DNA from: Spiroplasma litorale | GTDB taxonomy: Bacteria; Bacillota_I; Bacilli_A; Mycoplasmatales; Mycoplasmataceae | Length of the DNA stretch: 64,000 nt | Assembly (NCBI RefSeq): GCF_001267155.1 | Contig: NZ_CP012357.1 | Span: 186,001-250,000 of the forward strand | Direction of reading: 5' to 3' | Part shown: positions 20,930-63,136 of the stretch, in pieces | Position numbering within the stretch: the first letter of the stretch is position 1 | Layout of the letters: each line of letters begins with the position of its first letter | Notes under the pieces: generated by a model | Told to the model about the DNA's origin: nothing | Databases searched by the model: none | What the model saw: the letters and a program-made list of their open reading frames with translations, nothing else | Program-made: the position numbers and the translations under genes

Positions 20930-20993
20930 TTTACTTTGTATTAATTAAAATTATTTTTTTTATATTAAAATGTATAAATAGAAAGTGGAAATT

Positions 20994-22637
20994 ATGAAGC
21001 AATTGCAGTTTTTAAAAAGTATGATTACTAGTGGAGTTAATAACGTTTATAATAACTACCCTAAAATTGATAAATTAAATGTGTTTCCAGTTCCTGATGG
21101 TGATACAGGAACAAATATGAACTTAACTTGTACAAACGGTTTACAAGAAATCGAAGACGGAAATTATAAAAGCGCTTGAGAACTTATGTCTAAATTTTCA
21201 AGAGGGCTTATAATGGGTGCAAGAGGAAACTCAGGAGTTATTTTTTCACAAATAGTAAAAGGCTTCGCAAATGGACTAAAGGAAGATGATAGTTTAACTG
21301 CAAAATCTTGAAAAATAGCTTTTAAAATGGCAAAAGAAGTTTCGTATAGTGCTGTTATGAAACCTGTAGAAGGTACTATATTAACTGTAATAAGAGAAAC
21401 TAGTGAGTCTTTAGACTCTTTAGATGATAATTTAGATCAAAAAGAGTTCTGAAAAAAAGTAATTGAAGCTTCTAAAAAATCACTTGATAAAACACCAGAT
21501 TTATTACCTGTTCTTAAAGAAGTTGGTGTAGTTGATAGTGGTGGATATGGTCTTGTTAAGTTTTTTGAGGGCATGGAACAATATGTTCGATTAGGTAAAA
21601 TAATTCAAAGGCTAAAAAAACTTGAAGAAAATACAGGAAATAATATTGAATATGATAACATTGATGAGTTTGGTTATTGTACTGAGTGTATAGTAAATTT
21701 AATGGATGATTATATTGATAATTTAAATGTAGATGTTGTTAGAAGTACTCTTGAAGGTTACGGAAACACTTCTATTGTTGCTGTAACAGATAGTGATATA
21801 TTAAAAGTTCATACTCATGCTTTAATGCCAGGACAAGTATTAACATATATGCAACAATATGGAGAATTTAAATCTATTAAAGTTGAAAATATGAACTTGC
21901 AAGCCGAAAAACATACTACAGCTGCAGGTAAAAAAGATTCTGTAATTAAAGAAGTTGATAGAAAAAGACTATTAAAAAATGAAATTGCAACAATTTCAGT
22001 CTCAAGATCAAAAGGAATTGCCGACTATTTTAAAGAACAACTAAGTATTGATTATGTAATTGATGGAGGTCCTAAAATGAATCCTTCAACAAATGATTTT
22101 CTTGAGGCGATAGAACGAGTTGATGCTAAAGTAGTTTATATTTTTCCTAATGACGCAAATGTTCTTCTTGCTGCAAAACAAGCAAAAGATCTTGAAAAAC
22201 TTTCTAAAGTAGTTGTTATAGAAACAACTACTATACCTGAGGGAATTACAGCATATTTAAATCTTGACCCTGATGAAAGTATTAAAAAAAATGAATCTGC
22301 AATTGCGAAAGTTCTAAAAAATGTTACATCTATATCAATTAATAAAGCTGCAAGGGATTCAAAAATTGATAATGTTGATATTAAAGAAAACCAATTTATG
22401 TCTTCTGTTAATAGAAAAGTTTTTTGTGCAGCAGATAGTCTTAATGAAGTCATTGTAAAAGTATTATCTAAGAATATTAGTTCAAAAACTGAAATATTAA
22501 CAATTTTTACAGGCGCTGACGCAACTTTTAAAGATATTAGTAATTTAAGAAAATTTTTAGATGAAAATTATGATGTAGAATATGAATTAATAGAAGGTGG
22601 GCAAGAAGTTTACCTATTTATAATTGGTATTGAATAA
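20994..22637 (+). CDS. fakA: fatty acid kinase subunit FakA (DhaL/DegV fusion)
   Basis: ATP-binding subunit that phosphorylates fatty acids held by a FakB carrier, so that host fatty acids can enter phospholipid synthesis through PlsX/PlsY. It has 547 aa. The N-terminal DhaL domain has [12 protein letters not shown] at 31-42, followed by [12 protein letters not shown]. The linker has GYCTEC, and the C-terminal DegV-like half ends in EGGQEVYLF. Several TGA codons are Trp in the first 200 residues. I chose ATG 20994 over an in-frame GTG at 20985, which falls in the ribosome-binding region. No fakB is in the window, but plsX follows 4.6 kb later, which supports the pathway. Confidence 0.93.
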
Positions 22638-23183: not shown

Positions 23184-26100
23184 ATGAGAAATATATCAAA
23201 ATCTTATTTCAAATTATTCCTTAAATTATGAGTTGAAACTATTGGTATTATAGTATTTTTAACTATGTTTACAATGCTTGTTGTTGGAATGTTAGCAATT
23301 CCTTTGCAAATGACAATTAAAACAAACAACATTAAAAATAATACTAATGTTTGAGATCAACAAAGACAAAATATACCCGCTTTCACTAATGATTTTATTG
23401 ATAATTATTTAATAAATTATAAAGACGAGAATAAAGACATAATTGTAGAAAACAGTCAAAATTTAATAAAAATAAACCTCCCGAATGAAGGGGTATTTTC
23501 AAAAACTGCAATTGAAAAAATTGATGAATATACTGAATATGTTAAAAAAAATGATGCAAAAACTTTCTGTGAAGATGTATCAGAAGGAGAAGCAAATGAA
23601 GATTGTGTTAATGAATTTACACAATCAGCTAGAGTAGATTTCGCAAGAAATTTAATTGACTCTTTTTTGTTTATGGGAAACGATAAAACTTTAACCATTG
23701 CAGACGGAAGCAATATAGAACCAATAAAAATCAAAGAAATATTTACAGATGAAGGAAAATGATTAAATATAAATGGATGAACAACAAGAAGTTTAGAAGA
23801 CTATGTTGTACACAGTATTTTGAATTCTATAAATAATGATAAAATTAACTATTTGACATTTATGAATATTGTCTATAATGAACCTAAAGAAAATACAGAA
23901 AATGAATATTATCAATATTTAATAACTTCTGCTACGAGTTTAGAATATGATGACCAAAGAGAAAATAACATTGTTTTCTCTGATAAAAACAGCAGACTCC
24001 CAGTAGCAAACGATGAAGTAATTGTAAATGATAGATATGCAAAACTTTACAAAAAAAACATAAATGACAGTATTTATATTAAGAATAAAAAATTCAAAAT
24101 AGTTGGTATTGGGTCTAAATATTCTACAATTTCTCCAACAAGATATTCTCAACTTAGATCATCTATTGAAAACTACGTTCAAGTTTATGTAAAAAACAGT
24201 TTTTTTTATGAAAGCGATGATAGTTACACATTTAAAAAAATGTTTGCCACAAATAACTATACTTACAGTTCGCAGACAAATAAAATGTTTTTATTTTATT
24301 TTGAAAACTATGTAAATTTAATTGATAAAGATTATAACATTAATGATATTTTATCCTCTAAAATTAAAGGCAGTGAAGATGATTGAGAAAATAATTCTTT
24401 ATTTTACCCAGGTGTTTATTCTTTTAGAGCTTTTGATCAACACAAAAACATAAATGCTTTAACAAATTTATTTATAATGACTTACATTTATTTGGTAATT
24501 GGATTAATACTTTTTGTGCTTGGATTTAGTTTTGTAATATTTATATTAAAAAAAGAAATAAATAATACAAGAAATCAATTGGGTGTTTTCAAAGCACTTG
24601 GTTATAAGACAAGTCAATTGACTTGGATTTTTGCATTGAAAAATTTTGTCTCAATGAGTTTTTCTTTCATAGTTGGTTATTTATTATCAATTCCGTTTCA
24701 AATTGATTCTGCTGAAAAACAATTTAAATCAACGGTAACAATTGATTTTGATAGTATTTATCATGATTATGTATTTTTGTTTGTTCTTTTTATTCTTGTG
24801 CCATTGCTTTTTTCTTTATTTGCTTATTTTATTATTTATAGAGTTTTAAATGTAAATGCATTAAGTTTAATCCAACAACAAACAAGAAGAAATAAAAAAA
24901 ATTACTTATTAATAACATTGCAAATAATATTTTTCCCGACCCTAATATTCACTTTAATTAATTATATTATTTTAAGTAGTTCTAAAAAATATAACAAAAA
25001 TTTTAATTTCCGGTTACAAAGTGCATTTGTAAGTGATAATAAAGGGAAGTTTGCTTTAATTGTTTCATTATTTGGTATTAGTGCATTTTTATTTACTATG
25101 GAATTAAGAGCTACACCTGTACTAAAAAATATGTTTGAATCGGGTTATAATATTTATTCTAAAAATGTAAATCACTTTTATCAATATAATTCTATTAATA
25201 ATGTAAAATATACTGATAAAGGTTTAATGAGAAACAATGTAAAACCTGATTATAAAATATCATATGATGATGTATCAAATGGTTTAGAAAACTATATAAG
25301 TGAAAATATAAATTATTCTAATAAAATTAGTACTTTAATAAATAAAGTTTCAGATTTTAGAAATGATGCTATAAAAAATTCAAATGAGATTTACAAAAAA
25401 TATTCATGACTTATAAGTAACTTTGCATTTTTAATGTATCCTTTAGACACAGATGAAGACAAAATAGATATCAAAAGTTGAATCGATGAAACAATTTTAG
25501 AATTATTGAAAGACCCAAGCGTAGAAAATGTAAAGAATATTATTGATAATAAAATAATGAATAAAAAAAATGTTTTAAGTATCAAACCAATTGAAAATAG
25601 TAAAAACACCGGTATATATACTAACGATATTGCAAAGTATGTATGTGTTTCTTTACCAAATTATACTGAAGATTGTAATGACTTAAGCAAATTTAAAGAT
25701 TTAGCTAAAAAAACTGGAGGAGATTTTGGTAATAAAGATCCAAATTTAGGGGAACAAAGCAAAGTTGCAATTAGTTCAGTTTTAAAAGAATGATTAACTA
25801 CATTTGCTGTAAGTGATGATATAAATCCTTTCATTGCTGCAAATAAAGTTTTGTATGATAAAAACGAAGAGTCATTATCATTTACAATACCTTTTTATGT
25901 TGACGGCAACCCAGATGTAGATTCTTCTGATTCTAAACTTGTGTTAATTGATACAACAAATAAGTATGGTGATGCAAGAAATATATTCAATTTTTCTTCG
26001 ATAAGTGATAATAGTTATAATAGTTTAAAAGAAGTTAATGATAATTATTTCAATGGTTTGATTTCATATAGACTTTCAAAAATATTAGGTGTGAATACTG

Positions 26101-26972
26101 GAGATTCATTCGAAGTTAATTTAGCAAATACAAAATACAAAAAAGTTATTAAAGTAGCTGGTGTGATCTCTGACAATACATTAATGCAAGAAATTTATTT
26201 AGATCATGATACTGTTATGAAAAAGATTTCAACAAATGTAAATAAAGAACAAGTATATTTTAATAATCTATACAGCACAAAAGTTGCTAGTGAGGGACAA
26301 ATTGATTTAACCGATATAAAAAAATCAATTGATACCTTTAGGAATAAAAGAGAAATATTTGCCTTTGCAACAACAAATAGTAAACCTTGGTTATCTGCAA
26401 ACTTAGACTTGTTTATATCTAACTTCTCAAATTTAGCTCCACCTGGTGCGATTAAAAATATTGCAGATCATTTAAAAGAATATGTAATTAGTGCCTATGA
26501 TCAAAAATACTTTATAAACCCAGGTGTTATAACACTACCTATTTTAAAACAATTAATAAACAGTATTATTGGAGAAGTTCAAAAAGCCTTATTAACTTAT
26601 ATCATAATTGATATATTCTTATTAACGGTTTTATTAATAGTTTTAATGAATGTAATTATTAATGATGCTATAAATATAATTACAGTTATGAGGTCTATGG
26701 GGTATTCAAATAAAAAAATTAATTGGATAATAATGGGGAAATATATTATTTTCTCATTTATAAGCTTCTTAATCGGTTACTCCATGTCGTTGCTAACTTG
26801 GAAAATTATACAAATAGTAATATGATCGCAATACAAAGTTCTAGTATCCACCCCAACAATTATATGATTACCTTTTGTTTCTGCGATTGTATTGGGCACA
26901 ATACTTTATATAGGTTGATTTGCAGCAAAAATGCAAATAAGAAAAAAACCCCTAACATTGCTTGTATCTTAA
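23184..26972 (+). CDS. giant FtsX-type ABC permease, 1262 aa
   Basis: A very large membrane protein. There is one hydrophobic helix at about 14-45, then a big outside domain to about 425. Next come membrane helices with an FtsX motif (LGVFKALGYKTSQL) to about 660, a second outside domain to about 1125, and last helices with a second motif (ITVMRSMGYSNKKIN). This is the layout of MacB/LolE-type permeases with two FtsX domains in one chain. Many TGA codons are Trp, and the frame is unbroken from ATG 23184 to TAA 26970. It has no ATPase domain and no ATPase gene next to it. It may export or release a lipoprotein, peptide or lipid; the substrate is unknown. Confidence 0.85.
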
Positions 26973-27007
26973 AAAAAATGTAAAATATTTTAAAGGAGAT
27001 TTAGATT

Positions 27008-27220
27008 ATGCCTTTAAATAAAAATAATAGTTCAAATGAAGTTTGTTGCCCTGGTGGGGCGCATAATTGTTATACTTGTAGAGTTTGTAGTGGGTCATTT
27101 CATGGATGTAAAAGTTGTATGAAATGTATAAGTTGTCAAGTATGCTATGAAAAACAGTGCCCATGTTGTGTTGAGGGAAGTTCTCGCCAAAAAGAAAATA
27201 AAGCAAAATATAACAAATAG
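27008..27220 (+). CDS. small cysteine-rich protein, 70 aa, 13 Cys
   Basis: Not recognised. It has 13 cysteines between residues 13 and 54, most at strict three-residue steps: C21-C24-C27, then C34-C37-C40-C43-C46, plus pairs at C13-C14 and C53-C54. There are two His (19, 32), no signal peptide, and a hydrophilic basic tail. It has its own strong ribosome-binding site (AAAGGAG, 10 nt before ATG) and a dedicated terminator, so it is a real gene. Such spacing suits tight metal binding (Zn or Cu, metallothionein-like), Fe-S binding, or a thioether-modified peptide, but no maturation enzyme lies next to it. It follows the giant permease by 35 bp and msrA before that. Confidence 0.8.
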   Translation: MPLNKNNSSNEVCCPGGAHNCYTCRVCSGSFHGCKSCMKCISCQVCYEKQCPCCVEGSSRQKENKAKYNK

Positions 27221-27250
27221 AAAAAAGCAATGATTTATCATTGTTTTTTT
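27221..27250 (+). terminator. intrinsic terminator after the Cys-rich gene
   Basis: AAAAAAGCAATGA-TTTA-TCATTGTTTTTTT: a perfect stem with a 4-nt loop, directly after the stop codon. It closes the fakA-msrA-permease-Cys-rich run before plsX. Confidence 0.92.
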
Positions 27251-27289
27251 TAACAAATAATATTACCATAATAATAATGGAGATAAAAT

Positions 27290-28297
27290 ATGGATTTTAA
27301 AACAATAGCTTTTGATGTAATGGGTTCAGACAATGGCATAAATCCCGCTTTAGAAGCATCTATACAATTATTAAAAGAAAAAAAAGACTTAAAAATTATT
27401 TTTGTTGGTAACGAGGAAGAAATAAAAAAAACATTAACTAAGTTAAAATTTAGCTCCGACAGAATTGAATTTTTAAATACTACACAGTCTATAGAAATGA
27501 CTGACGGTATATTAGAATTTAGACGCAAAAAAGATTCAAGTATGGTTAGGGCGATAGAGTTAGTTAAAGAAGGAAAAGCGGACGCTGTAACTACGGGTGG
27601 TGCGACGGCTCCATATATTGCAGCCTGTCACTTTATAATCAAAGAACTTGAAGGAGTAGATAGACCTGCTTTTATGCCTGTTATTCCAACCATAATTAAA
27701 AATAAAGTAACATTATTATTAGATGTTGGTGCAAATTTAGAGTGCACACCAAAAGATTTGAAAAATTTTGCACTAATGGCCAGTGCATATTCAAAAATAG
27801 TAAATGATATTAAAAACCCTTTAGTTGGTTTATTAAATATAGGGGAAGAAAAATCAAAAGGTCTTGAATTACATAGAGAAGCGTATAAAGTTTTAAGTGA
27901 TAGTAAGCAAATTAGTTTCTATGGTAATATCGAACCTAGATACATAACTTCTGGAATAGTTGATGTTGTTGTGACTGATGGATATACTGGTAATGTAGCT
28001 TTAAAATCTGCTGAAGGTATGGGTAAAAACTTATTAAATGAAATTAAAACTGCCTTAACCAAAAACATTTTTCGAAAACTTGCTGCATTAAGACTTAGAA
28101 AAGCATTTAAAGAAGTTAGTGCTAAGTTTGATTACAAAAATCATGCAGGCGCACTTTTAATAGGTCTTAATAAAATTGCTTTTAAGTCACACGGTTCAAG
28201 TGATAAAAGATCTTTTTATGCTACTCTAAAAATGACATACAACGCAATTTCAAATGATGTTGTAAATAAATTGAAAGAAGCTTTAAAAGATGAATAG
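27290..28297 (+). CDS. plsX: phosphate acyltransferase PlsX
   Basis: Makes acyl-phosphate, the donor for PlsY in phospholipid synthesis; it works with fatty acyl phosphate from FakA/FakB or with acyl-ACP. It has 335 aa. Motifs: [11 protein letters not shown] at the N-terminus, [51 protein letters not shown] and [13 protein letters not shown]. The start is ATG 27290, after TGGAG. It overlaps rnc by 8 bp, keeping the Firmicute plsX...rnc order. Confidence 0.96.
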
Positions 28298-29007: not shown

Positions 29008-30171
29008 TTAAAAAGATACTTTCTCCATACGAATTTCGTATGGAGTTTTTTTATGTTTTAATGAAGGTCTAACATAATTATAAAACTCTATATAGTCTGA
29101 GATAATTTTATAAATATTTGAATGATGTAGTTCTTTTACTTTATATGTATATATACATTCATTTTTAAAAGTTCCAAAAAAAGACTCACAGGCACCATTA
29201 TCTGGTGAATTTCCTCTTCGTGACATAGAAATATTTATATTATTAGTTTTACATAATCTTTCTCAAGTTTCATTTGTATATGGTGATCCTTGATCTGAGT
29301 GGATTATCTTTGGTGCACCTCTTTTTTTAATGGCGCTTATTAAATTTGTATGACATAATTTATTATTAGGACTAACCGATAACTTTCAATCAATAATTTC
29401 TGAATTAAACAAATCCTTTATAACAGATAGATATACGTTTCCATTAATAGTTTTTATATAAGTTACATCTGTTACTCATTTTTCATTTATATTTTTAGAT
29501 TTAAAGTTTCTATTTAGTAGATTTTCAAATCTTAATGGACCTGATTTATCATAGTTTGGAACTTTCTTTTTCTTCACTGCTTTTAAACTCATTATTTTCA
29601 TATATCTATAAACAACTCAAGGGTTTAATCTTTCTTTAAAGTATTTGTTTAAAAATAAAGTTATCATATTATAACCATATCTTTTTTTAAACAAGTAAAA
29701 AAGGCATCTTATCTTAATTGCTAAAATTCTATTATAATTTTTATACTTTGGTTTTCCGTTTTTAAGTCATTTTAAATATCCATACCTTGAAACTTTTAAA
29801 TATAAACAAGATAATTTCAAAGAAAACATTCTTTTAACATTAAAAATGGCGAAGTACTTTTCCTTAGTTGTCTTCGCCAAATGCTTTTTTAAAGCTCGTT
29901 CCAGTTTCAAAGCCTCTCTTAATTCTTCAATGCTCATATCATCAGGTTCTTTAAAAATTCAATCATGAGATTTAAATTTTTTGATATTTCCTTTTGCTTG
30001 TGTTCCGCTACCTCATTCAAGAGCGCCTTCACCTTTAACTTTTACCTCTGATTTTCATCTTTTAATTGTGCTAGTACTAATATCAAACTTTAATGCCGCA
30101 TTTAAAATACCAATTTTTTTTGATTCATTAATTATATTAAGTTTTTCATTTTTTGTTCATTGTTTTGCCAT
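29008..30171 (-). CDS. IS3-family transposase, intact single ORF
   Basis: Reading TGA as Trp gives one unbroken frame of 387 aa. It starts MAKQWTKNEKLN with a helix-turn-helix region (ALKFDISTSTIKRWKSE), then a linker, then the DDE integrase domain: first Asp in WVTDVTYIKT, second Asp in IHSDQGSPYTN, Glu in DNGACESFFGTFKNE. Most IS3 elements split these parts into orfA and orfB joined by a programmed frameshift; here they are already in one frame. The start ATG follows AAAGGTGTTC. It is probably the enzyme source for the other copies. Confidence 0.93.
29023..29052 (+). terminator. terminator-like hairpin inside the IS, antisense to the transposase
   Basis: CTCCATACGA-ATT-TCGTATGGAG followed by TTTTTTT on the plus strand. 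It lies within the last codons of the transposase gene but is oriented to stop transcripts entering the IS from the rnc side. The same hairpin occurs in copy C (33227-33256); it has one mismatch in copy D and a damaged stem in copy A. It may replace the host terminator that the insertion breaks. Confidence 0.75.
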
Positions 30172-30253: not shown

Positions 30254-31115
30254 TTATTTTTTATCATAGATATGTTTGTAAGAATTATTATTTGCTTCTT
30301 TTAAAATATCTATTATATTTTTAGACTTATTTTTATATAGAGAAATTATAGTTGCTAAATGAACATCGCCCGCACCAGTTGTGTCTAAAACTAGCTTTCA
30401 TAATTATATTTTATATATTTTATGCTATTTTCTTTGTGACAGTAATATGCAAACCCATCTCCCCCTAAAGTTATAATAATGTCATTATTATTTATTAATT
30501 TTAATTTTTTAATACAACTTTCTACGTCTTTTTGATTGGTGTAGTCTTTTGCTTCTTTAAAGTTCATATGCATTATTGGTTTTATATCAGATAGAGTATT
30601 AATAAATTCATCTCTAATACTTTTAAACATTGGACTTACAGAAAAATAAATTCTTGAATTTTTTTCCTTTTAAGATAATCTATTAAATACTTTGATTTGT
30701 CATTTAATAACTTATAACCATCAAAATATATACAATCATAGTTTTTATCAACCTTTTTAAACCACTTTTCTTCAATTGTATTTTCAACACCGTTTTTTGT
30801 TATAAAAGTTCTTTCACCATTTGGAGTTATTAAATTTAAACAATATCCATTATCAGACTTACAATCTTTTAAAACTAATTTACTTCTAAGCTTTTTGACT
30901 TCTTTTTTTATTAACTTTGAGATATTTCCGTTACCTATAGGAATAAATAGTTCAATACTATTATTATATTTTTTAACTATTTTAGCAACATTATAAGCGC
31001 ATCCACCAATTGTTTTCTCTTCATGGTTTGTTCTAACTTGTCCTCCGAGTTCAGGCAAGTTATTAACTTTTAGATTAATTTGATATAATGCAGATCCTAT
31101 AACTAATATTTTCAT
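30254..31115 (-). pseudogene. PfkB-family carbohydrate kinase, two frameshifts
   Basis: Remnant of a ribokinase-type sugar or nucleoside kinase. Frame 1 (31115 down to 30636) has KILVIGSALYQINLKV and the PfkB signature GGCAYNVAKI. A frameshift in the A run near 30660 moves to a frame with YFSVSPMFKSIRDEF and the IMHMNFKEA segment. A second shift near 30398 is needed to reach the ATP-site motif LDTTGAGDVHLA and the final TAA 30254. The catalytic Asp is still visible in TTGAGD. With two shifts and stops it cannot make a whole protein. The substrate is unknown. It is next to IS copy B, in the rnc/smc accessory wedge. Confidence 0.85.
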
Positions 31116-33187: not shown

Positions 33188-34448
33188 TGAAATTGTCAAT
33201 TAAAATTGACATTAAAAAGATACTTTCTCCATACGAATTTCGTATGGAGTTTTTTTATGTTTTAATAAAGGTCTAACATAATTATAAAACTCTATATAGT
33301 CTGAGATAATTTTATAAATATTTGAATGATGTAGTTCTTTTACTTTATATGTATATATACATTCATTTTTAAAAGTTCCAAAAAAAGACTCACAGGCACC
33401 ATTATTTGGTGAATTTCCTCTTCGTGACATAGAAATATTTATATTATTATTTTTACATAATCTTTCTCAAGTTTCATTTGTATATGGTGATCCTTGATCT
33501 GAGTGGATTATCTTTGGTGCACCTCTTTTTTTAATGGCGCTTATTAAATTTGTATGACATAATTTATTATTAGGACTAACCGATAACTTTCAATCAACAA
33601 TTTCTGAATTAAACAAATCTTTTATAACAGATAGATAAACATTTCCATTAATAGTTTTTATATAAGTTACATCTGTTACTCATTTTTCATTTAAATTTTA
33701 GAATTAAAGTTTCTATTTAGTAGATTTTCAAATCTTAATGGACCTGATTTATCATAGTTTGGAACTTTCTTTTTCTTTGCTGCTTTTAAACTCATTGTTT
33801 TCATATATCTATAAACAACTCAAGGGTTTAATCTTTCTTTAAAGTATTTGTTTAAAAATAAAGTTATCATATTATAACCATATCTTTTTTTAAACAAGTA
33901 AAAAAGGCATCTTATCTTAATTGCTAAAATTCTATTATAATTTTTATACTTTGGTTTTCCGTTTTTAAGTCATTTTAAATATCCATACCTTGAAACTTTT
34001 AAATATAAATAAGATAATTTCAAAGAAAACATTCTTTTAACATTAAAAATGGCGAAGTACTTTTCCTTAGTCGTCTTCGCCAAATGCTTTTTTAAAGCTC
34101 GTTCCAGTTTCAAAGCCTCTCTTAATTCTTCACGCTCATATCATCAGGTTCTTTAAAAATTCAATCATGAGATTTAAATTTTTTGATATTTCCTTTTGCT
34201 TGTGTTCCACTACCTCATTCAAGAGCGCCTTCACCTTTAACTTTTACCTCTGATTTTCATCTTTTAATTGTGCTAGTACTAATATCAAACTTTAATGCCG
34301 TATTTAAAATACCAATTTTTTTTGATTCATTAATTATATTAAGTTTTTCATTTTTTGTTCATTCTTTTGCCATATAAAAAGAACACCTTTCAATAAAATT
34401 TTAACAATAAAAGTACTTTTTTACTGTCAATTTTATTTTAGATTTTCA
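33188..34448 (-). mobile_element. IS3-family insertion sequence, copy C (decayed)
   Basis: A 1261-bp element in minus orientation, nearly identical to copy B. Flanks ATA (33185-33187) and ATA (34449-34451) are an exact 3-bp target duplication. The outer flanks A6TAAACTT (to 33184) and AAGTTTAT8 (from about 34454) are the two arms of a 13-bp hairpin, so the element lies in the loop of the lipoprotein's terminator. The 103 bp from here to smc hold only AT-rich promoter-like sequence. Confidence 0.93.
33212..34373 (-). pseudogene. IS3-family transposase, copy C, two frameshifts
   Basis: Compared with copy B, one base is missing near 33700 (TTTAAATTTTAG against TTTATATTTTTAG in plus-strand reading). 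A second is missing near 34132 (CTTCACGCTC against CTTCAATGCTC). The length 1162 against 1164 agrees. The DDE motifs are readable, but the frame is broken twice. Confidence 0.9.
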
Positions 34449-59304: not shown

Positions 59305-60064
59305 TATAGAAAATACAAAAATTATTAATTTAAATGATGATATACCTAGTAACATAGAATTAAATGAAGACACAAATTATTTACTTTTCATAAAAAACTT
59401 AAATAGCGATATTACTTTTAACATAAATGATGCTGTGAAAACTAATGTTACTATTATTTTTTATAATTCAGATAATGAAGAAAATTCAAAATATAAAATT
59501 ATTTTTAATTTAAATAATAATTCATTCATCGATCTTTATATTGCAAATGTAACTAATTATAATTCTGATGAAAATATCGTGGTTAACTTAAATGGAGAAA
59601 ACTCTGGTGTTGAATATTATAGTTCAACAATAGCTAATAAAAACCTTAATAAAATTTCTGTATTAAATATTGAACATAAATATAGAAATACTTATTCTAA
59701 TGTAAAAGTTTATTATGTTTTAAAAGACACTTCTAAGGGTTTCATAAGGTGTTCAAGCAATATTATAAAGGGATCATCAGGATCAGAAGCGCATCAAGAG
59801 TTAAGATTGCTTTTATTAGATGAAAAAGCCAGTGCAAATTCAGACCCAGTTTTACTAATAGATGAAAATGATATAATAGCAAGTCATGCAAATGCAATTG
59901 GTATGTTAGACCCAGATCAAATATTTTATTTAAAATCAAGAGGTCTAGATGAAAAAACCGCGCACCAATTAATTATTAATGGTTATTTTGAACCAATAAT
60001 TAATACTATGATTAGTGATGATCAGAAAAATATGCTATCAAGTATTTTAAAGGAAATGATTTAA
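59288..60064 (+). CDS. sufD: Fe-S assembly protein SufD
   Basis: Partner of SufB and SufC in the scaffold. It has 258 aa, much shorter than the 430 or so of Bacillus SufD: the N-terminal helical part is missing or reduced. The beta-helix core and C-terminal family motif are clear: GSEAHQELRLLLLDEKASANSDP, ASHANAIGMLDPDQIFYLKSRG, and QLIINGYFEPI. The His in SHANA is the conserved one. It starts inside sufC and shares its last base with the sufS start. Confidence 0.93.
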   Translation: MKVLNNIENTKIINLNDDIPSNIELNEDTNYLLFIKNLNSDITFNINDAVKTNVTIIFYNSDNEENSKYKIIFNLNNNSFIDLYIANVTNYNSDENIVVNLNGENSGVEYYSSTIANKNLNKISVLNIEHKYRNTYSNVKVYYVLKDTSKGFIRCSSNIIKGSSGSEAHQELRLLLLDEKASANSDPVLLIDENDIIASHANAIGMLDPDQIFYLKSRGLDEKTAHQLIINGYFEPIINTMISDDQKNMLSSILKEMI

Positions 60065-61286: not shown

Positions 61287-61721
61287 ATGATTGATAAAAA
61301 CGATAAAATTATGTTAAGACAAATAATTATGGAACATTATACAGCACCTGAAAATAAAAACTTATTAAATAATAAAGAAGCAATAATAAAATTACAAGAT
61401 TCACCTACTTGTAGTGATGAAATTAATGTTCAATTGTTATTTGATTTAGATTGTATTGAAGATTCAAGGTTTGATGGTAATGCTTGTGCTATTGCAACAG
61501 CAGCTTCAGATATTTTATGTAATGGTTTAAAAAATAAAAATAAAAAAGAAGCATTAAAATATTTAGAAAATTATCACAAATTAATAACAACAGGAGAATG
61601 TGATGAAAACATTCTAGATGAATTAATTGTATTTTCAGATATTTATAAGCAAGGAAATAGAATTAATTGCGCTTTATTGGCAGCTGATGGATTTAAAAAA
61701 ATTATATTAAATGAGGTTTAA
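61287..61721 (+). CDS. sufU: SufU sulfur-transfer/scaffold protein
   Basis: A 144-aa IscU-like protein that accepts sulfur from SufS. The three Cys ligands are present in DSPTCSDEI, FDGNACAIATAASD and NRINCALLAADG, along with the conserved Asp in DGNAC. The SufU-type insert lies before the third Cys. Start ATG after AAGGAGATAT. It lies between sufS and sufB, the Firmicute order. Confidence 0.95.
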   Translation: MIDKNDKIMLRQIIMEHYTAPENKNLLNNKEAIIKLQDSPTCSDEINVQLLFDLDCIEDSRFDGNACAIATAASDILCNGLKNKNKKEALKYLENYHKLITTGECDENILDELIVFSDIYKQGNRINCALLAADGFKKIILNEV

Positions 61722-61723
61722 GT

Positions 61724-63136
61724 ATGAAAAAATTGAAACAAGAAAAAGAAATTAAAGAAATTTCAAATTATAAATACGGTTTTAACGAAGGAGAAGTTTC
61801 TTCTTTTAAAGTGGAAAAGGGTATAAACGAAGAAATAATCAAACAAATTTCAAGACATAAAAATGAGCCAGAATGGATGCTTGATTATAGACTTAAAAGT
61901 TTAAAAATATTTAATGACTTTCCTCAACCTAATTTTGGTCCCGACCTAAATTTTATAAATTTTGATGATTATTATTACTACACAGAAGGGGACAATAAAA
62001 TTTCAAATGATTGAGATGATGTCCCGACAAATATTAAAAAAACTTTTGAAAGATTAGGAATACCAGAAGCCGAAAAAGAATTTTTATTAGGTATAAATGC
62101 ACAATGAGATGCAAAACCAGTTTATGAAAATTTAAATAAAGAATTAGAAAAACAAGGAGTTATTTTTACTGACTGTGATACAGCACTTAGAAAATATCCG
62201 GAAATTTTTAAAAAATATTTTGGAATGATTGTTAAAAATAATGATAATAAGTATGCTGCTCTTAATTCTGCAGTATGAAGCGGAGGAACTTTTATTTATG
62301 TTCCAAGTGGAATAAAACTTTCAAAACCATTGCAAGCATATTTTAGAATTAACTATCAATTATCAGGACAGTTTGAAAGAACTTTGATAGTTGTTGAAGA
62401 TGATGCTGAATTACATTACATAGAAGGTTGTACAGCACCAATTTATTCAAAAAACAATTTACATGCTGCCATTGTTGAAATATTCATTGGTAAAAGGTCT
62501 AAAGTTAGATACACAACCGTACAAAATTGAAGCGACAACGTACTAAATCTTGTTACAAAAAGAAGTTTAGTTGAAGAAGATGGAAGAATGGAATGGATTG
62601 ATGGAAACATTGGTTCTAAAATAAATATGAAATATCCTTCATGTATATTAAAGGGTGATAGATCTCAAGGCGATACTATATCTATTGCTGTTGCAAAAAA
62701 AGGTGTCTATCAAGATGCGGGAAGTAAAATGATACATTTAGGTAAGGAAACAAAATCTAAAATAATCTCTAAATCAATAACGTTCCAAGGAGGTACTGCA
62801 AATTATAGAGGGCTTGCTTATATTGGACCAAATGCGATAAATTCAAAAGCTAGAGTTGAGTGTGATACTCTAATTTTAGATAATCAATCTCATTCAGACA
62901 CAATTCCACAAAATAAGGTTCATAATAATAAATCTCAAATTGAGCATGAAGCAACAGTATCTAAAGTTAGTGAAGAACAATTGTTTTATTTAATGTCTAG
63001 AGGTTTGAGTGAGCAACAAGCATTAGAAATCATAGTTATGGGCTTCTTAGAACCTTTTACAAAGGAATTACCACTTGAATATGCAGTTGAACTAAACCAA
63101 TTAATTAAAATGGATATGGAGGGATCTGTGGGTTAA
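61724..63136 (+). CDS. sufB: Fe-S assembly protein SufB
   Basis: Main scaffold of the SufBCD complex. It has 470 aa. Segments: [17 protein letters not shown] at the N-terminus, [52 protein letters not shown], and at the C-terminus [19 protein letters not shown] with [20 protein letters not shown]. The conserved C-terminal Cys is in RVECDT. Several TGA codons are Trp. It starts 2 bp after sufU and ends the operon at a terminator. Confidence 0.97.

Follow-up and report, generated by a model that had tools for sequence, protein, structure and literature searches.

The cysteine-rich gene and its signals

Within a 64,000-nucleotide stretch of the Spiroplasma litorale contig NZ_CP012357.1 (hereafter the window), a small open reading frame encoding a 70-amino-acid cysteine-rich protein lies between the gene for a large permease and plsX. 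The features of the locus are as follows.

20985–22637, forward strand: fakA, probably the ancestral upstream neighbour (domain match; gene order)
23184–26972, forward strand: 1,262-amino-acid FtsX-type permease (PF02687, E = 3.5e-19), judged not to be a functional partner
26958–26986, forward strand: promoter TTGCTT-N17-TAAAAT, its −35 element inside the last codons of the permease gene
26992–26999, forward strand: ribosome-binding site AAAGGAGA, including AAAGGAG; a purine-rich site is kept in relatives
27008–27220, forward strand: coding sequence of the cysteine-rich protein (translation; orthologues in all 20 genomes of the genus; low pN/pS, given below)
27044–27169, forward strand: 42-residue cysteine core, C13 to C54 (no insertion or deletion among 32 distinct cores)
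27170–27217, forward strand: conserved polar and basic C-terminal tail, GS-x-RQ-x-EN-x-KY-x-K (alignment)
27220–27251, forward strand: intrinsic terminator, 14-bp stem and U tract (−12.5 kcal/mol, z = −5.78)
27290–28297, forward strand: plsX, probably the ancestral downstream neighbour (domain match; gene order)

Translation of the reading frame places 13 cysteines at residues 13, 14, 21, 24, 27, 34, 37, 40, 43, 46, 51, 53 and 54. Two blocks follow exact three-residue steps (C21/24/27 and C34/37/40/43/46) and CC pairs fall at 13–14 and 53–54, in agreement with the pattern described in an initial annotation made from the sequence alone. Cysteine accounts for 0.65% of residues in the larger open reading frames of the window, and at the window's cysteine rate only 0.46 cysteines would be expected here (binomial P of about 1e-15). 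Given 13 cysteines in a 42-residue span, the three-residue spacing by itself departs only mildly from chance expectation (P of about 0.016 for seven i,i+3 pairs, and about 0.037 for a run of five at three-residue steps with the same count and span); the weight of the evidence lies in conservation. The protein sequence shows neither a signal peptide nor a hydrophobic segment.

The open reading frame is a real gene with its own promoter and terminator. Across the genus, TATAAT stands at the expected place in 16 of 20 genomes, 14 of which also carry a TTG −35 element; shortly before the start, 14 of 20 genomes thus have TTGNNN-N16–18-TATAAT, which chance would supply in 0.4%. The window's own promoter is a weaker match than those of most relatives and is absent from the list returned by a stricter promoter scan. 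Hairpin-like sequences lie 3′ of the gene in most relatives. The initial annotation had argued for a real gene from the ribosome-binding site and terminator, a claim that the orthologues, purifying selection and conserved promoter strengthen.

Conservation of the core and tail

Among 32 distinct cores from six genera, nine cysteines (C13, 14, 21, 24, 27, 34, 40, 43 and 51) and H19 are invariant, and C37, C46 and C54 are each kept in 31. C53 is relaxed: 27 cores keep it, and the other five have V, M or Y instead. The non-cysteine residues P15, R25, S36, I41 and K49 are nearly fixed, and none of the cores has gained or lost a residue. At the cysteine positions TGT and TGC replace each other freely, the residue itself being retained, and the median pN/pS is 0.27 over 190 pairs within the window's genus. 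The gene is under purifying selection, including on its cysteines and histidine, and conservation of the protein is roughly on a par with that of the core enzymes encoded beside it. This pattern points to a core with a definite fold built around metal, and not to a loose thiol tail.

The protein occurs in two forms, a long one of 62–72 amino acids with the basic tail and one of 49 amino acids that lacks it. (The genus labels g1, g4–g6, g8 and g9 used here are those of the analysis; g1 is the window's genus, and g8 is termed citri-type because the sequences of S. citri and S. phoeniceum fall there.) The short form belongs to g8, and the tail motif GS-x-RQ-x-EN-x-KY is common to g1, g4, g5 and g6. 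AlphaFold models the long form with short helices, one of them in the tail (mean pLDDT 72.6, pTM 0.51), and gives a poor model of the short form (pLDDT 54).

An indel-free core, conserved non-cysteine residues and a basic tail exceed what a simple buffer would need, and suggest a defined fold or a partner. They could be explained by a zinc-stabilized adaptor or regulator, in which the cysteine and histidine sites hold structural zinc while the tail contacts nucleic acid, the ribosome or a protein. The invariant non-ligand residues of the core, the conservation of the tail motif in four genera and the helix modelled there all fit such a role. However, the short citri-type form does without the tail, no zinc-finger family or fold matches the protein, and 13 cysteines in 42 residues is a density well above that of usual zinc fingers, which are far less cysteine-dense. 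We regard an adaptor of this kind as unlikely.

Distribution and family searches

A whole-genome search recovered an orthologue in all 20 genomes of g1, the other 19 at 68–88% identity to the window's protein, and a profile search extended the family to 36 of 60 genomes of the taxonomic family, in g1, g4, g5, g6 and g8. One further carrier, G306, is a genome from another family. Matches in named public records fall in Spiroplasma phoeniceum and Spiroplasma citri, and the S. citri record has no annotated feature under the match. A search of 395 genomes sampled from the class gave no convincing relative outside the order, a single match at E = 0.004 being judged due to chance. No phage or viral contig carried a relative and PHROGs gave one weak match (E = 0.71); a phage or mobile origin of the gene was rejected for want of phage or viral-contig relatives.

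G184 (L021, 5932–7030) and G190 each contain a second, long-form copy (MLEICCPGG...), to which a further copy in G306 is related (copies at L021, L043 and L046). In G190 and G306 it is followed by a nearly identical 275-amino-acid membrane protein of unknown family. This second copy looks mobile in the three genomes, and the common neighbour in G190 and G306 suggests transfer.

The protein is thus in every examined genome of one Spiroplasma genus, yet in no family library searched. Queries with 12–21 family members returned no match in Pfam, and none in NCBIfam even at E = 10 apart from a chance hit to a cytochrome model (E = 5.6), within the limits that HMMER filters place on very weak matches. 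A sequence search of the PDB and a fold search, the latter with a medium-confidence model as query, gave no significant match, and the view of the initial annotation that no described family fits holds across Pfam, NCBIfam and the PDB. Keyword searches of the open literature, outside which most subscription journals lie, found neither an account of this protein nor a metallothionein or metal-buffering thiol protein made by Mollicutes.

Gene neighbourhood

A domain search identified the neighbours in the window as msrA, the FtsX-type permease and plsX, confirming that the gene follows msrA and the permease as first annotated. Throughout g1 the next large upstream gene is an FtsX-type permease (20 of 20 genomes), at a distance of 34–51 bp in 19 genomes and 396 bp in one, and plsX lies downstream unless it has been relocated. 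In g4, g5 and g6 there is no permease, and the gene is flanked by fakA and plsX. Judging from gene order, the fakA/plsX arrangement probably came first, with the permease inserted afterwards.

Two functional links drawn from these neighbours did not survive the comparison. An msrA-based redox link was rejected because msrA adjoins the gene in only three genomes, the window's and those of two close relatives (L067 and L081). Partnership with the permease, argued from operon logic, was rejected on two grounds: the gene is served by a promoter of its own, and the permease is missing in other genera. The same evidence bears on the proposal that the gene encodes the precursor of a thioether- or disulfide-modified peptide exported by the permease. 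The product is indeed short, cysteine-rich and encoded beside an FtsX-type permease in every genome of the genus, but it has no leader-like region or division into leader and core, and its cysteine core is nearly invariant, whereas the cores of modified peptides usually vary. Three other genera carry the gene without the permease; across the genus the permease is only 31–62% identical to the window's, compared with 68–88% for the cysteine-rich protein; and no modifying enzyme was recognized among the genes adjoining it. An exported peptide is, in our assessment, very improbable.

Further downstream in the window, a near-complete IS3-type transposase open reading frame (29008–30171) and a broken, near-identical copy (33212–34113) flank a sugar-kinase-like gene that is apparently broken into pieces (30391–31115).

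Association with ispG and Fe–S genes

In 11 of the 14 genomes of the citri-type genus, ispG and the cysteine-rich gene are immediate neighbours on one strand, ispG first; where measured and not fused, they are 47–136 bp apart. Insertions separate the two genes in G190 and G195, and in G189 the cysteine-rich gene is missing, ispG running straight into the sequence normally found 3′ of it. The two form a single reading frame in G184 and on the S. citri plasmid pSciBLH13-1, where the fusion (L082, 6861–8150) lies near fib, nfo and greA and has no feature in the gene table.

Gene content points in the same direction. Among the 60 family genomes, IspG and SufB/D occur together in 39, of which 38 (G194 being the exception) also have IspH, and the cysteine-rich protein agrees with IspG in 55 (35 with both, 20 with neither; P = 5e-11, uncorrected for kinship). 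NifU_N (SufU) is present in all 60 and so does not discriminate. The window itself contains Fe–S assembly genes, of the SufB/D family at about 59498–59983 and 62345–63046 and of the SufU/NifU_N type at 61320–61580.

These observations raise the alternative that the protein is an accessory Fe–S protein (a cluster carrier, a protector or a special electron carrier) to the MEP-pathway enzyme IspG, and perhaps also to IspH. Flavodoxin is almost absent (1 of 60 family genomes), and in G194 and G195 the cysteine-rich gene is damaged or missing together with IspH, which was not found in G194 and is truncated in G195 (L165). When expressed in E. coli, S. citri IspG was inactive (PMC8896826, table 2) and many IspGs needed their own electron carrier (PMC8896826), which makes a link to IspG testable.

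Against this, agreement at the genus level reaches only P = 0.07, and five of the 60 genomes break it, with exceptions in both directions. IspG and the other Fe–S genes are present without the cysteine-rich protein in G189 and three g9 genomes, and a further 65 genomes in the order have IspG without it. Conversely, G306 has the protein and lacks IspG, and G175 (85% complete) keeps all 13 cysteines in a gene between fakA and plsX (L047/L172), with IspG, IspH, SufB/D and ferredoxin not found in that assembly; the protein is therefore not tied to a single pathway. A carrier also exists already. Ferredoxin-like matches, scoring close to or under the cut-offs of the Fer4 models, occur in 38 of the 39 IspG-bearing genomes (all but G003), and on reading they include a canonical single-cluster ferredoxin in the window's genome (58 amino acids), G173, G192 and G197, which weakens the candidacy of the cysteine-rich protein as sole electron donor for IspG and IspH.

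The locus evidence is qualified in a similar way. A single-nucleotide (1-nt) indel produced the fusion, which retains the internal start and ribosome-binding site, and G184 and the S. citri plasmid may represent one species, so that the fusion is weakened as evidence. A promoter-like TATAAT of the cysteine-rich gene follows ispG in several citri-type species, and in the window's genus the gene is far from ispG. In G186 (L167) ispG is frameshifted and the cysteine-rich gene intact; some citri-type genomes appear to be losing the isoprenoid pathway, and G194 and G195 may be undergoing general decay.

The gene thus broadly follows the Fe–S and MEP genes within the family, with clear exceptions, and the link to IspG is suggestive. 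We consider an accessory Fe–S role for IspG unlikely. A more specific form, in which this Spiroplasma-specific protein is a dedicated Fe–S cluster guard or second electron carrier of IspG, fused to it in S. citri, and represents a new kind of polythiolate Fe–S microprotein whose 42 residues hold as many as three clusters, strikes us as decidedly improbable.

A proposed metal-thiolate protein and its comparison with known systems

The reading we favour, at about an even chance of being correct, is a folded, cytosolic multi-metal thiolate protein that would act in the manner of a metallothionein, with zinc as the favoured metal. The zinc-stabilized adaptor and the Fe–S role alongside IspG are its chief competitors. 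Metal binding, which the initial annotation had put forward, is the best reading of the number, pairing and invariance of the candidate ligands. The protein would be small, independently transcribed and specific to Spiroplasma lineages, its 12–13 cysteines and invariant histidine very probably folding around d10 metals, three or four ions in all. Our guess for the bound metal is Zn2+, with Cu+ possible; zinc is preferred only from ligand chemistry and from analogy with SmtA and the Pseudomonas metallothioneins. We would likewise guess that the protein holds or buffers metal ions and protects thiols, as metallothioneins do, rather than serving a structural purpose. It could be a missing component of the way in which bacteria living within insects and plants handle metal or Fe–S clusters, and it is small enough for production, metal loading and structure determination by standard methods.

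Genomic context was also searched for signs of a particular metal. The neighbours of the gene are fakA, msrA, the permease, plsX or ispG, and we found no regulator or transporter of the metal-responsive type among them. HMA copper domains occur in 16 of 36 genomes with the protein and in 5 of 24 without it (P = 0.10) and are absent from the window's genome; a copper link was rejected because these domains do not follow the gene.

Like the 4Fe–4S ferredoxins (Fer4, Fer4_13), the cysteine-rich protein has CxxCxxC motifs and a similar size, and its genomes are largely shared with Fe–S genes. Unlike them it has no Fer4 match, its spacing is wrong for CxxCxxCxxxCP, and a separate ferredoxin is encoded in the same genome. 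With the copper storage proteins Csp1 and Csp3 it shares many cysteines at helix-like spacing, and Csp1 binds 13 Cu+ (PMC7558416). Those proteins are four-helix bundles, however, whereas this one has a core of 42 amino acids, no such fold in its medium-confidence model and no Pfam match.

The bacterial metallothioneins differ in having about 9 cysteines rather than 12–13, and the present protein is set apart by its ladder of CxxC steps and CC pairs in a fixed-length core and by its conserved basic tail. It has no sequence or profile match to them; the metallothionein models of Pfam and NCBIfam matched none of the 12–21 members searched, so that the placement in a known metallothionein family against which the initial annotation proposed to check it was not found there. 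In contrast to smtA, no linked SmtB-type repressor was seen at the locus; a metal-responsive repressor next to the gene is known for smtA and is not required of all metallothioneins. SmtA binds four zinc ions and a Pseudomonas metallothionein binds three zinc or four cadmium ions in Cys9His clusters (PMC7387436). As in SmtA/BmtA, Pseudomonas MT and MymT, the protein is small, apparently cytosolic and cysteine-rich, with a candidate histidine ligand and enough ligands for three or four d10 ions, and the best reading of the comparison is a metallothionein-like protein that stands outside the known metallothionein families.
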